DNA of 64,000 nucleotides, taken from assembly GCF_000422945.1 (NCBI RefSeq), contig NZ_AUHA01000002.1, positions 372,001 to 436,000 of the forward strand, read 5' to 3'. The DNA comes from Daejeonella oryzae DSM 19973. Its GTDB lineage: Bacteria; Bacteroidota; Bacteroidia; Sphingobacteriales; Sphingobacteriaceae. The position numbers were made by a program, and so were the translations under genes. A model generated the notes under the pieces. It worked only from the letters and a program-made list of their open reading frames with translations. It did no database searches and was not told the origin of the DNA. This document shows positions 8,866 to 15,757 of this stretch, in pieces; position 1 is the stretch's first letter; every line of letters begins with the position of its first letter.

Positions 8866-9444
8866 ATGCAGGATAAAAAACACAGACAGAACCAGGCAAA
8901 AATTCTGCGAATCGCCAGGAAAATACATCGTACCACGGGAGCCTTGCTGTTCGTTTTTTTCTTTATTATTTCAGTTAGCGGATTGTTTCTGGGCTGGAAA
9001 AAACACAGCGGTGGAATCATTCTTGCCAAATCTTACCAGGGGACTTCCAGCGAATTAAAAGACTGGCTTTCCATTGACAGTCTTCATAAAAATGCAGGCA
9101 AAATATTTATTGACTCCATATCAAAAACCCTCTCACAGGAACTTGACAGAATTGATATCAGAAAAGATAAGGGAATGGTGAAATTTGTATTTTCCAAAGG
9201 TTACTGGGGCATTCAGCTGGATGGGGTAACCGGTAAATTGCTTCATATAGAAAACCGCCGTGCAGACCTTATTGAAAATATTCATGACGGCTCAATTCTC
9301 GATTCCTATTTCAATACCAGTAACGGGCAAATAAAGTTGGTTTATACTACTGTAATGGGAATTGCTTTACTAATATTTACAATCACGGGTTTTTGGCTAT
9401 GGTATGGACCTAAACGGATGAGAAATAAAACTGCTCCTGATTAG
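8866..9444 (+). CDS. PepSY-associated membrane protein
   Basis: This 192-residue protein has a short basic N-terminus, a first transmembrane helix at about 25-45 (ALLFVFFFIISVSGLFLGW), an extracytoplasmic PepSY-like domain (about 60-150) and a second helix at about 162-182 (TVMGIALLIFTITGFWLWY). This resembles a one-unit version of the PepSY_TM family, whose larger members act in iron-siderophore reduction or inhibit extracytoplasmic peptidases. The start of the first helix (HRTTGALLF) and the WLWYGPK end match that family. It follows the E1 gene by 35 nt and may be cotranscribed with the secreted-protein gene 35 nt downstream. The role is unassigned. Confidence 0.72.
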   Translation: MQDKKHRQNQAKILRIARKIHRTTGALLFVFFFIISVSGLFLGWKKHSGGIILAKSYQGTSSELKDWLSIDSLHKNAGKIFIDSISKTLSQELDRIDIRKDKGMVKFVFSKGYWGIQLDGVTGKLLHIENRRADLIENIHDGSILDSYFNTSNGQIKLVYTTVMGIALLIFTITGFWLWYGPKRMRNKTAPD

Positions 9445-9479
9445 TGAAACTCCTTAATCTCATTTAAACTTTATACAAA

Positions 9480-10043
9480 ATGAAATTTACATTCTCTGTT
9501 CTATTGTTTTTAATTTCTCTAAGTACAGTGGCTCAGGACCAATCCGGAGCACAAAAATTCTGGAAAAATCTTCAAAAGCATTGTGGTAAATCCTTTGAAG
9601 GTGAAATAACTGAAGGGCCTGCAAACGATGATTTTAGAGGTAAGAAATTAGTAATGCATGTTCGCAGTTGTGATGAAAACCGAATTCGCATTCCGTTTTT
9701 TGTAGGAGATGATAAATCCAGAACCTGGATATTAACTTATGAGAATGATCGAATCCAACTTAAGCATGATCATCGTCATGAGGATGGAACTGAAGATAAA
9801 ATCACGCAATACGGCGGAAAAACAACAAATTCAGGATTGACTAATATCCAGTTTTTCGCTGCTGATCAGGAAACTGCTGATCTGATTCCTGCGGCTTCAA
9901 ATAATGTATGGTGGATTACGCTGGATGAAAAATCCTTTACTTATAACCTTAGACGGATTGGTTCTGACCGTTTATTTTCGGTACGGTTTGATTTGACTAA
10001 AGCAACAGCAAATCCATCCGCTCCATGGGGATGGAAAAATTAA
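9480..10043 (+). CDS. Conserved-looking secreted protein of unknown function
   Basis: This 187-residue protein has a clear signal peptide (MKFTFSVLLFLISLSTVA, cleaved before Q). The mature part has only two cysteines (HCGKS and RSCDE), close enough to form a disulfide, and a His/Asp-rich segment (KHDHRHEDGTEDK). It is rich in polar beta-type segments and ends in WGWKN. I do not recognise an enzymatic motif. It may be periplasmic or outer-membrane associated. It is convergent with the SprT-like gene, separated by 4 nt, with no obvious terminator between them. The PepSY membrane gene lies just upstream, which suggests an envelope role but does not prove one. Confidence 0.7.
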   Translation: MKFTFSVLLFLISLSTVAQDQSGAQKFWKNLQKHCGKSFEGEITEGPANDDFRGKKLVMHVRSCDENRIRIPFFVGDDKSRTWILTYENDRIQLKHDHRHEDGTEDKITQYGGKTTNSGLTNIQFFAADQETADLIPAASNNVWWITLDEKSFTYNLRRIGSDRLFSVRFDLTKATANPSAPWGWKN

Positions 10044-13267: not shown

Positions 13268-13663
13268 TTACAATAATTTTTCATTGAATCGAATTCTGTG
13301 TAAAAAAATATAGCTGAATATTCCCATTCCTACGCCTGTCATATCCGCAAAAAAGTCCCACCATTCGGCCGAGCGATACGTGAATATATAATATTGAAGC
13401 ATCTCAATAGCGGCACCCAGAAATGTGGTTATTAAAAGTATTTTCAATATGGTTATAGTACGATAGGTATAACTCAATTGTTGTCTTATTTTTCCGTAAA
13501 ATAACAGAACCGTTAACACAAAGAAAAATCCCGTATGAACCAGTTTATCAAAACCTTCGAATACGGGAATTTTTGTGTTATTACTGATTGGTAAATCACA
13601 TAGAATAAGAACAATAACTGCCCAGATAATAGCCAGGTACTGATATCTTAAGGTGTTAAGCAT
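13268..13663 (-). CDS. VanZ-like family membrane protein
   Basis: This small membrane protein of 131 residues has about four hydrophobic segments. The spacing of polar residues fits the VanZ-like family: DKLVHTGFFFVLTVLLFYG in the second helix region, GAAIEMLQYY, and EWWDFFADMTGVGMGIF near the C-terminus. The acidic and aromatic residues in the last two blocks are the family hallmark. VanZ confers low-level teicoplanin resistance in enterococci, but most family members are uncharacterised. Its ATG overlaps the gcvH stop by one base (TAATG), so it is translationally coupled to gcvH, an arrangement I recall as common in Bacteroidota. Confidence 0.82.
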   Translation of the reverse strand: MLNTLRYQYLAIIWAVIVLILCDLPISNNTKIPVFEGFDKLVHTGFFFVLTVLLFYGKIRQQLSYTYRTITILKILLITTFLGAAIEMLQYYIFTYRSAEWWDFFADMTGVGMGIFSYIFLHRIRFNEKLL

Positions 13664-14052
13664 TATCCGCCAACCTGTTCTTTATATTCATCTGCAGAAA
13701 GCAACGAATCTAATTGTGCATTATCAGCTAAATCAATTTTTACCATCCAGCCCTCACCATACGGATCACTGTTTACAAGTTCTGGGTTCGTATCCAACTT
13801 TTTATTGAACTCGATTATCTTACCATTAACCGGCATGAAGAGGTCTGAAACAGTTTTAACCGCTTCTACGGTACCGAAAACATCATCATGGTTAATATGC
13901 TCGCCAACTGTATTGATATCTACATACACAATATCTCCCAACTCATGCTGGGCAAATTCTGTGATGCCAATAACGGCCTGCTTACCTTCATTACCTTCGA
14001 TACGAATCCATTCGTGATCTTTCGTATATTTTAATTCGGATGGGAAATTCAT
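13663..14052 (-). CDS. gcvH: Glycine cleavage system H protein
   Basis: This 129-residue lipoyl carrier of the glycine cleavage system shuttles the aminomethyl group from GcvP to GcvT. The lipoylation site is K66 within [13 protein letters not shown]. The flanking sequences (KYTKDHEWI at the N-terminus, [14 protein letters not shown] and the late MVKI) are diagnostic of GcvH. The length is standard. The ATG at 14052 is supported by the family N-terminus. gcvT and gcvP are not in the window. It is cotranscribed with the VanZ-like gene. Its promoter lies in 14053-14180, where nothing else coding is seen and no glycine riboswitch fold is evident. Confidence 0.97.
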
Positions 14053-14186
14053 TGCGTTTATTATTTTGGTTGCTCAAAAATAGAATAAGATATTTGAATT
14101 AAGAATTGAGAATCAAGATAATCTATTACATTAAGGCAAAGTATTTACAAATACACGTATTTGATATACCCGGAATCTTAAAACAA

Positions 14187-14218
14187 AAAAACCTTTTCCC
14201 GGAAAGGAAAAGGTTTTT
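14187..14218 (-). terminator. Orphan terminator of the atpG-tail remnant
   Basis: Perfect 13-bp inverted repeat (AAAAACCTTTTCC at 14187-14199, complement at 14206-14218) with a 6-nt loop and A/T tracts on both sides. It lies 18 nt downstream of the stop codon of the duplicated atpG end, just as the live atpG has its own terminator 20 nt after its stop. Confidence 0.85.
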
Positions 14219-14236
14219 AAAATGTTAATAAGTTAA

Positions 14237-14302
14237 TTATGCGTTACTCAATGCAGCTGCACCACTCACAATCTCCGTTAACTCAGTAGTAATCGCTGCC
14301 TA
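14237..14302 (-). pseudogene. atpG: Remnant: last 20 codons of a second atpG
   Basis: Read on the minus strand, this fragment encodes the final 20 residues of ATP synthase gamma (AITTELTEIVSGAAALSNA preceded by A) plus a TAA. The peptide is identical to the end of the intact atpG at 14876. At DNA level, 11 of the 20 codons differ, all synonymously (14 differences in 63 bases, including a TCA/AGT serine switch). The position matching the next upstream codon is TAG here and CAG in the intact gene, and similarity stops there. The fragment cannot be a functional gene. It looks like the displaced 3' end of another atpG allele. Confidence 0.85.
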
Positions 14303-14335
14303 AGTAATTAGACCTTTTTAGAATGATTTGCTTGC

Positions 14336-14741
14336 TCACTTAACCAGAGTTCTTAAAAAAGCTACTAATAAAATAAGCGCAGGTAAAATACTATAATATG
14401 CAATAAACTCCAATATCCCGTCTTCTCTTCTTTTACGGTCCAGTTTTTCTATAACAATAAGATATTTTTCACCTTTAAGCTTCTGTCCGAGTTTAAAAAT
14501 AAAATATAGGACAGTGCATATCAATATAAAAACTTCTATAGCTGTAATTGTGGTTACAAAAAAAATACTAATCAGATATCTGGTGATAATGGATAATGAA
14601 TATCAATACAATATGTATTAATATCAGGGAATCACACACTCTTTTAATAGGAATTTGCTTTGCTTTAGCCCAATTTATTCCAAATATTCTTTTGTGAATC
14701 TTAAACAGCAGATAGAAATAATAATTATATAATGTGTTCAT
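14336..14741 (-). pseudogene. Frameshifted small membrane-protein gene (probable)
   Basis: Two overlapping minus-strand frames look like halves of one small membrane protein. The first (ATG at 14741, stop at 14568) gives 57 residues starting MNTLYNYYFYLLFKIHKR and ending in a hydrophobic segment. The second is open from about 14600 to 14336 without any ATG and continues with hydrophobic residues, a charged section (KLGQKLKGEKYLIVIEKLDR) and a final helix (YSILPALILLVAFL). A shift near the A/T homopolymer around 14559-14566 would join them into a protein of about 130 residues with about three helices. Small two-to-three-helix proteins of this layout are frequent in Bacteroidota; their role is unknown to me. 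Part two could alternatively start at a TTG (14524). Confidence 0.5.
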
Positions 14742-14823
14742 GATTAAATTGGATCACAGCTAAAAATATAAACAGAAGAAAGATTTAGTGGATTAAGATT
14801 CCTTCCAAAAAACCAGCAAACAA

Positions 14824-14855
14824 AAAATCCCTTGCCAAAACTGGCAAGGGATTTT
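14824..14855 (-). terminator. Rho-independent terminator of the atp operon
   Basis: Perfect 14-bp stem (AAAATCCCTTGCCA at 14824-14837, complement at 14842-14855) with a 4-nt loop, 20 nt beyond the atpG stop. On the minus strand it is followed by a T run. It ends the long atp transcript. Confidence 0.93.
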
Positions 14856-14875
14856 CGATATCCGGATGACCGAGA

Positions 14876-15757
14876 TTATGCATTTGAAAGCGCTGCTGCA
14901 CCGCTGACGATCTCTGTTAACTCTGTAGTAATAGCTGCCTGACGGGCCTGGTTATATGAAAGTTTTAATGCTTTCAACAAATCTCCGGCATTTTCAGTAG
15001 CCTTATCCATCGCTGTCATACGTGCTCCGTGCTCTGAGGCATGAGAATCAAGTATGGCTTTATAAACCTGTGTCTTGATAGATTTTGGTATTAACTGTTC
15101 CACTATTTCTTCCTGAGAAGGTTCTAAGATATAATCAACAGATACTCTGCTCACTACAGACTGAACTGAACGTGGAACCGGTAATAATTGTTCGCTGGTA
15201 AGAATTTGAACGGCTGCATTTTTAAACTGATTATAAACCAATTCTACGCGGTCATAATCACCATTTGCAAAACCAGTCATAATATCTTCCGTAATTTTAG
15301 AAGCGTTCTGAAAAGTTAAAGCATTGTATAACTCGTTATTATTACCAATTACTTTATAATTACGCTTTTCATAAAAATCCTGAACCTTTTTACCGATTGC
15401 TACAATCTGAACATTCCCTTTACGAAACTGCTCCGGATATTTTTCAGCAATCAGGTTATTGGTGGTTTTTATCACGTTCATGTTAAAAGCACCGGCAAGA
15501 CCTCTGTTAGAAGATACCGCAATTACCAATACACGCACAGGTTCACGCTCCTGTATGAAAGGGGAATTAGATTCTTCCAGACTGGCAGAAAGGTTTGCCA
15601 GAATTTCTTTCATTTTATTAGCGTAAGGACGTAACTGAACAATTGCATTAGTTGCTCTTTTCAACTTGGCCGCCGAAACCATTTTCATGGCTTTGGTGAT
15701 CTGCTGAGTTGAACTTACAGATGCTATACGATTTCTTACTTCTTTTAAATTAGCCAT
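14876..15757 (-). CDS. atpG: ATP synthase F1 subunit gamma
   Basis: This 293-residue central rotor shaft of F1 couples proton flow through the c-ring to ATP synthesis in the alpha/beta hexamer. The N-terminal coiled-coil helix MANLKEVRNRIASVSSTQQITKAMKMVSAAKL and the C-terminal helix ending TELTEIVSGAAALSNA are the conserved gamma signatures. The ATG at 15757 fits the family. It is the last gene of the atp operon and is followed by a strong terminator. A 78-nt palindromic repeat occupies its leader right up to the start codon. Downstream, a second diverged copy of its 3' end is present at 14237-14302. Confidence 0.97.
   Translation of the reverse strand: MANLKEVRNRIASVSSTQQITKAMKMVSAAKLKRATNAIVQLRPYANKMKEILANLSASLEESNSPFIQEREPVRVLVIAVSSNRGLAGAFNMNVIKTTNNLIAEKYPEQFRKGNVQIVAIGKKVQDFYEKRNYKVIGNNNELYNALTFQNASKITEDIMTGFANGDYDRVELVYNQFKNAAVQILTSEQLLPVPRSVQSVVSRVSVDYILEPSQEEIVEQLIPKSIKTQVYKAILDSHASEHGARMTAMDKATENAGDLLKALKLSYNQARQAAITTELTEIVSGAAALSNA

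Follow-up and report, generated by a model that had tools for sequence, protein, structure and literature searches.

The 3' end of atpG is present twice in the atp region of Daejeonella oryzae DSM 19973, in two versions that encode the same residues with different codons and enclose a decayed small gene. In the window (the whole stretch of 64,000 nucleotides analysed here), one of these ends belongs to the intact gene (inner tail), and the other, a 60-nt coding copy followed by a positionally equivalent terminator, sits free about 574 nt past the atpG stop (outer tail; Table 1). Close to it lies one joint of a chromosomal inversion, both joints of which were located, and similar structures were detected in other genomes. 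We interpret this arrangement as the scar left by the insertion of a short segment at the atpG 3' end by one-sided homology, a reading to which we assign a probability of roughly 60%.

Table 1. Features around the atpG-gcvH joint (window coordinates; a dot marks a feature without strand)
Feature	Position	Strand	Remarks
gcvH, first gene of the gcvH-vanZ-feoA-feoB block	13663..14052	-	block follows sprA in most congeners
Left inversion joint	14118..14187	.	stretch bounded by the native gcvH promoter region (its upstream end) and the outer terminator
Outer hairpin-T terminator	14187..14218	-	-18.6 kcal/mol, z -4.3
Free outer atpG tail, 20 codons + TAA	14237..14299	-	preceded by TAG at 14302-14300, replacing CAG
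Non-homologous junction, decayed gene to free tail	14300..14335	-	proposed illegitimate joint at ~14300
Decayed small membrane-protein gene	14336..14741	-	~136 aa in two frames, frameshift near 14586; 27.6% GC
Inner hairpin-T terminator of atpG	14824..14855	-	-28.2 kcal/mol for the stretch, z -4.9
atpG, intact, 293 aa	14876..15757	-	last 20 sense codons, 14938-14879, are the inner tail

Both tails encode AAITTELTEIVSGAAALSNA and each of them stops with TAA, the translation of the free tail (14299-14237, minus strand) being that of residues 274-293 of AtpG. Codon by codon, the inner and outer tails differ at 11 of 20 codons and 14 of 60 nt, and all 11 codon changes are silent, including leucine (CTT/TTG) and serine (TCA/AGT) switches; 11 silently different codons of 20 is also the figure given in the original prediction of a second atpG 3' end. 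That prediction placed the tail at 14237-14302; the 14237 end held, and the other coordinate was three bases too generous, the true start being 14299. Immediately ahead of the free tail, TAG (14302-14300) replaces the CAG of residue 273 in atpG, which puts the end of the homology at this codon or within it. This outer joint is sharp, as the atpG homology stops at the tail with at most two shared bases in codon 273. A search with the whole AtpG against the 3.9-kb locus (L001; tblastn, E <= 1e-3) recovered only atpG itself and the free tail, and full-length atpG is present as a single copy in the genome (3.45 Mb in 10 contigs).

The silent-only pattern of the tails is not due to chance, as none of 200,000 random sets of 14 changes retained all 20 residues, the best of them keeping 18 of 20, once. 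With no replacement among the 11 changed codons, a decaying duplicate was rejected, in line with what had been claimed from the first reading of the sequence. By contrast, a free atpG-end copy found in another family (G475, described below) carries 10 replacement or stop codons vs 4 silent ones, which is the look of decay. Per random change, the silent fraction in the tail codons is 0.26-0.31, so the tail is unlikely to have undergone more than two neutral changes after losing its function, the probability of three of them all being silent amounting to 0.017-0.030. With so few neutral changes, the stranding of the tail looks younger than the divergence of the two ends.

The level of this divergence was compared with that among 20 relatives, 16 of the genus and four from three other genera of the family. 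Over 17-18 codons, the inner tail showed 10-16 and the outer tail 7-13 silent differences from these relatives, and between the two tails 10 of the same 18 codons are different. Their distance is thus about that of related species, which argues against a decaying local duplicate and agrees with the suggestion that both ends evolved under selection in separate lineages. The outer tail was nearer to the relatives in 11 of 20 comparisons, farther in two and equal in seven; these relatives are not independent of one another, and the outer tail is only weakly favoured as the resident one. Since the tail is short (60 nt) and its silent sites are near saturation, donor and resident ends are not separable with confidence. 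Both tails end in Ala and the 20 other atpG genes compared all end in Gly, so that either both tails come from one close clade or the Ala arose twice. C-terminal Ala may also be present in other atpG genes of the family, such as those of G128 and G147, which match a 27-residue tail query over its full length at 96%.

Regarding the terminators, the presence of a separate strong terminator behind the outer tail, parallel to that of atpG, was confirmed, and both hairpins fold well, with the z values given in Table 1. Each hairpin is perfect and followed by a T run, starting 20 nt (inner) or 18 nt (outer) after the stop codon, and both share a T-run/GTTT ending. Based on this ending and the similar spacing, the hairpins look like two versions of one atpG terminator. 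No Rfam family was detected at gathering threshold in 13600-15000.

The decayed membrane-protein gene stands alone between the tails, with no integrase and no second gene; it had no Pfam or NCBIfam family above cut-off, and the insert sequence occurs once in the genome. Homologues were matched at E <= 0.01 in nine of 301 family genomes, the own genome included. Two of them are clear and intact, G292 (E 8.7e-16) and G053 (E 1.2e-8); the intact homologues of these two genomes (loci L213 and L214) measure 132 and 128 aa, and no atp genes were present within the 16-20 kb fetched around either. The six remaining matches (E 5e-4 to 0.009) all contain stops, and no match was found in 19 congeners; a donor of this DNA was not found either.

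Searches for further free tails were carried out at two levels. Within the family, 399 genomes were searched, 396 of them with a match at E <= 1, and multiple matches were found in 12: the D. oryzae genome itself (G000), G034, G118 and nine others, in which no second match fell below E 0.29. Another 26 genomes of the family showed no free tail (E <= 0.01), so that, at the thresholds used, none was found in the 424 other family genomes searched. Among the congeners, an atpG-tail match was detected in 18 of 19 and a free second tail in none, second matches in G002, G009 and G012 appearing only at E 0.30-0.63; the possibility, raised along with the original prediction, that all relatives carry the two tails was therefore not borne out. 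The class search covered 395 genomes, 15 of them in the family, with matches at E <= 0.01 in 356 and more than one match in six (G000, G499, G583, G632, G062, and G475). Second open frames of 299, 206, and 288 aa account for G499, G583, and G632, respectively, and G062 and G475, from other families, carry free tails about 0.63 kb past atpG.

The second matches in G034 (C112, L185) and G118 (C9, L186) correspond to second full-length atpG-like frames, and such pairs could diverge silently. They lend some plausibility to a history in which two full atpG genes stood side by side, by duplication or acquisition, diverged silently, and one of them was later deleted down to its tail. The second copies in G034 and G118 are, however, only 69-71% identical in the tail vs 100% here; among the 18 congeners with an atpG match, a second one was found in G007 only, at 24% identity; and a small gene sits between the copies in D. 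oryzae. We consider this history improbable.

A remnant of an integrase-driven element was also considered, in which an attP-borne atpG 3' end would have rebuilt atpG and all but 0.57 kb of the element would then have been lost. Islands usually show two direct copies of the gene end, one of them rebuilding the gene, and remnants of the CIME type may lack the site-specific recombinase gene. The two direct copies at atpG match this anatomy, the homology starts sharply in the tail, and free tails behind atpG are also present in two genomes of other families. However, the interval between the copies contains no integrase; in 425 family genomes, no further free tail appeared at the thresholds applied; the copies in the three genomes start at different distances before the end of the stop (about 65 nt in the window, about 86 nt in G062, and about 185 nt in G475), unlike a fixed core; and a comparable pattern was found at an unrelated gene (L079, below). 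Moreover, the viral contigs searched contained no AtpG relative, no atpG-tail pattern and no relative of the intact-frame half of the insert; matches of the insert to phages were at chance level only (4 records, E 0.7). The plasmid collection yielded 49 records, and the 20 listed were all from other phyla and were annotated as ATP synthase gamma or unannotated. Such a remnant is thus an unlikely origin, if slightly less so than a deleted twin gene. Of the earlier proposal that the atpG 3' end was replaced and its old tail stranded, insertion at the atpG 3' end is supported. An integrase-type element at an attachment site is not supported: the insert is single-copy, the copies enclose no integrase, and the family searches brought up no second case of a free tail at the thresholds used. 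In the literature on atpG and integrative elements, insofar as its text was available, only a paper on an SXT/R391 element was found.

Free atpG tails were present in three of ~763 genomes with an atpG match (422 in the family and 341 outside), compared with two free tails among 1,958 other ORFs (Fisher p = 0.14), so that there is no significant sign of atpG being a special insertion site. This comparison is rough, as thresholds were mixed (E <= 1, E <= 0.01, identity >= 70%), the other ORFs, from 142 loci, include spurious and atpG ORFs, 91 of these loci are atpG-centred, and L045 equals L206.

The ends of genes other than atpG were addressed in a survey of C-terminal ends over the 142 loci (2.57 Mb, 1,961 ORFs), which revealed, besides the tails in G000, G062, and G475, displaced ends at L079 and L215; the remaining matches were paralogues, internal repeats, and short matches of one doubtful ORF (L213). 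In G062 (L270:5089-5834), an identical 84-nt copy starts 641 nt past the atpG stop, closing with TGA rather than TAA; a DUF5615/DUF433 gene pair on the opposite strand forms the insert, which we take to be the make-up of a toxin-antitoxin module. G475 (L271:6700-7697) presented a decaying 241-nt copy of the atpG end at 627 nt, extending into the terminator, with a 139-aa lipoprotein-like ORF between atpG and the copy. At L079:2392-3466, in Arcicella aurantiaca, a 237-nt copy of the end of a carboxylase-type gene was found at 594 nt, behind a DUF6934 insert (E 6.5e-44). Its 66 equal, 11 silent, and 2 replacement codons repeat the mostly silent signature of the tails in the window. Finally, L215:10849-12970 (G004), downstream of atpG, contains a Tae4-type T6SS effector gene (E 5.2e-16) and a lipoprotein-like gene, with the displaced effector end 542 nt past the stop, 71% alike (tblastn) and with 12 silent and 7 replacement codons, which resembles the known situation of effector displacement. 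The spacing from stop to copy was 0.54-0.64 kb across all the cases.

The copies in G062 (identical) and G475 (decaying) lack the silent signature, and copying of an end within the same strain fits them just as well; the three atpG cases, those of the window, G062, and G475, do not necessarily form a single family.

As controls, N-termini and gene-middle segments were surveyed too. N-termini gave one comparable case, in Mucilaginibacter sp. SMC90 (L059:11054-12306), a mirror image in which the N-terminus copy (85% over 20 aa) lies 588 nt upstream of the gene. The other matches were a 15-aa one 8 nt upstream (L074), a 14-aa one on the other strand and 7.5 kb off (L122), paralogues (L103), and a repeat-rich 111-aa ORF (L256). 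Gene-middle segments returned only paralogues (L080, L103) and the repeat-rich ORF of L256.

The second component of the locus is the inversion. The immediate upstream neighbour of gcvH is sprA in 17 of 19 congeners, the exceptions being G011, whose contig ends there, and G019, which is otherwise rearranged. Downstream of atpG, a 72-aa gene on the same strand was found in 14 of 17 assessable congeners, with a formyltransferase gene between both in G013 and G006; it was absent from this place in G005, G014, and G015, and the two congeners outside this set were G017, where the contig ends, and G016, with no atpG match. In D. oryzae, sprA (C1:1327643-1334692) is directly followed by the 72-aa gene, which constitutes the reciprocal joint (L219:10693-10811), and then by a patatin-like gene, a gldB-like gene, a 214-aa gene, and a NAD-synthetase gene (for these and for sprA, the names are those we presume them to carry). 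Hence, about 948 kb were inverted (C1 386.15-1334.7 kb). On the left side, DNA upstream of gcvH aligns to G006 and G013 only from ~14118-14122 downwards. Neither the inversion nor the adjacency of atpG and gcvH was found in the congeners assessed, and because of the inversion none of them has an atpG-gcvH flank. Elsewhere in the window, at 8866-10043, two genes stand between two conserved neighbours, a 664-aa gene and the sprT-like gene, and are missing from that place in the seven fetched congeners having this neighbour pair.

The midpoint of the inverted segment falls at ~860.4-860.8 kb, depending on whether its left end is taken as 386.15 or 386.9 kb, and the GC-skew switch is best placed at 857-865 kb of contig C1. 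Among the stretches sampled within the segment, all 13 before the switch had negative skew and 12 of the 13 after it had positive skew; outside, 9 of 12 stretches were negative on the left and 5 of 7 positive on the right. If this switch is the replication origin, the inversion is origin-symmetric, a common type of bacterial rearrangement, and we presume that it is centred on the origin.

The insertion joint and the inversion joint lie ~115-185 bp apart in one lineage, a nearness that the one-sided insertion model alone leaves unexplained. It would be explained if the inversion itself had made the structure in a single event, the broken ends being joined with a captured foreign fragment. Two further observations point the same way: the congeners assessed showed neither insert nor inversion, and the skew switch lies at the middle of the segment, a symmetry expected for fork-associated inversions. 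Nevertheless, the right joint (sprA/72-aa gene, L219) showed no match above chance to the atpG tail or to the insert, and insertion alone accounts for the two tails, making a single event improbable to about the same degree as the deletion of a twin atpG. In DNA duplication associated with inversion, the duplicates are found at both joints and in inverted orientation, unlike the two copies described here, which lie at one joint and in the same orientation; with no recognisable atpG tail or insert sequence at the right joint, the locus does not correspond to that process.

Insertion by one-sided homology would have proceeded as follows. Donor DNA from a closely related but distinct lineage, bringing its own atpG end, terminator, and small membrane-protein gene, would have paired with the resident atpG and crossed over upstream by homology, and at codon 273/274 of the resident atpG its downstream side would have been joined with no homology involved. 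Since the donor end codes for identical residues, AtpG would have stayed whole, and the resident end, together with its terminator, would have been stranded 0.6 kb downstream as the free tail. The process would be a homology-facilitated illegitimate recombination and its outcome an insertion with long target duplication. The ~948-kb inversion, which took place in this lineage too, joined this end of the atp operon to gcvH. The spacings, the scattered starts of the copies, the lack of a recombinase, and the unrelated genes involved fit homology on one side and non-homologous joining on the other; the silent divergence of the copies in the window and at L079 fits this mode of entry most of all. 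We infer the one-sided mechanism, the assignment of the inner end to the donor and the outer one to the resident, and any causal tie to the inversion.

A homologous joint in or upstream of atpG is an assumption of the model, and trees of 10 species showed no supported conflict. In them, the genome stands beside G013 and G006 for atpG as well as for the gcvH-feo block, and the other genes of the atp region leave it unplaced (support 0.14), so the trees give no independent sign of foreign DNA in atpG. Likewise, sliding silent distances along the gene in search of a crossover inside atpG revealed no contrast.

Silently diverged copies, in contrast to identical ones, separate the copying of a resident end from the arrival of an orthologous end, and arrival from elsewhere fits both the window and Arcicella. 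Looking genome-wide for gene tails that recur 0.5-0.8 kb downstream would reveal such events and aid in dating them, and a link between insertion and origin-symmetric inversion is testable in strains of this species. A wider and rather doubtful extension would be that solo small genes, such as toxin-antitoxin pairs or immunity-like membrane proteins, enter Bacteroidota genomes at core-gene 3' ends through one shared process, the incoming unit bringing the orthologous end of another species so that the gene is never broken, and that strand invasion at a fork can trigger origin-symmetric inversions, as it would have done here.

Among the systems known, insertion with long target duplication would be expected to yield copies that are both duplicates of one resident sequence. 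This does not hold for the two versions of the atpG end in the window, 11 of 20 codons being silently different, whereas the copies of G062 are identical. That process was described for restriction-modification genes of H. pylori (Nobusato et al. 2000, as summarised in the available part of PMC1643837 and mentioned in that of PMC4978471). The locus resembles it in that a small gene unit is flanked by long direct copies of the target, and differs in involving a core-gene 3' end and a membrane-protein gene, and in the silent divergence of the copies, which plain duplication of a resident target does not predict. As regards integrative elements that rebuild gene 3' ends and their CIME remnants, direct gene-end copies likewise flank foreign DNA and the gene is restored, but no integrase, fixed core, or element family was found here (on such elements, see PMC7563491 and PMC9815147). 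DNA duplication associated with inversion (Furuta et al. 2011, as cited in the accessible text of PMC8963470 and PMC4978471) shares the presence of a gene-end copy at an inversion breakpoint, and nothing else close was found in the inversion-breakpoint literature searched. The literature searched contained no core-gene tail with silently diverged copies; the queries were not aimed exactly there, and this is no evidence of absence.

A likeness also exists to the T6SS effector arrays of Vibrio, for which the available text of PMC5361080 proposes homology-facilitated illegitimate recombination, as defined in that of PMC3240628, and calls the process rare. As far as these texts describe them, the arrays show an upstream homologous anchor, a downstream non-homologous joining, and an end shifted behind the module, as the model proposes for the window. 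In Vibrio, the displaced gene changes its end, giving a variable effector, whereas AtpG is unchanged because the incoming end would be that of an ortholog. In conclusion, the structure belongs to a known kind, and the silent-only differences between its two ends point to an origin of one of them in another lineage.
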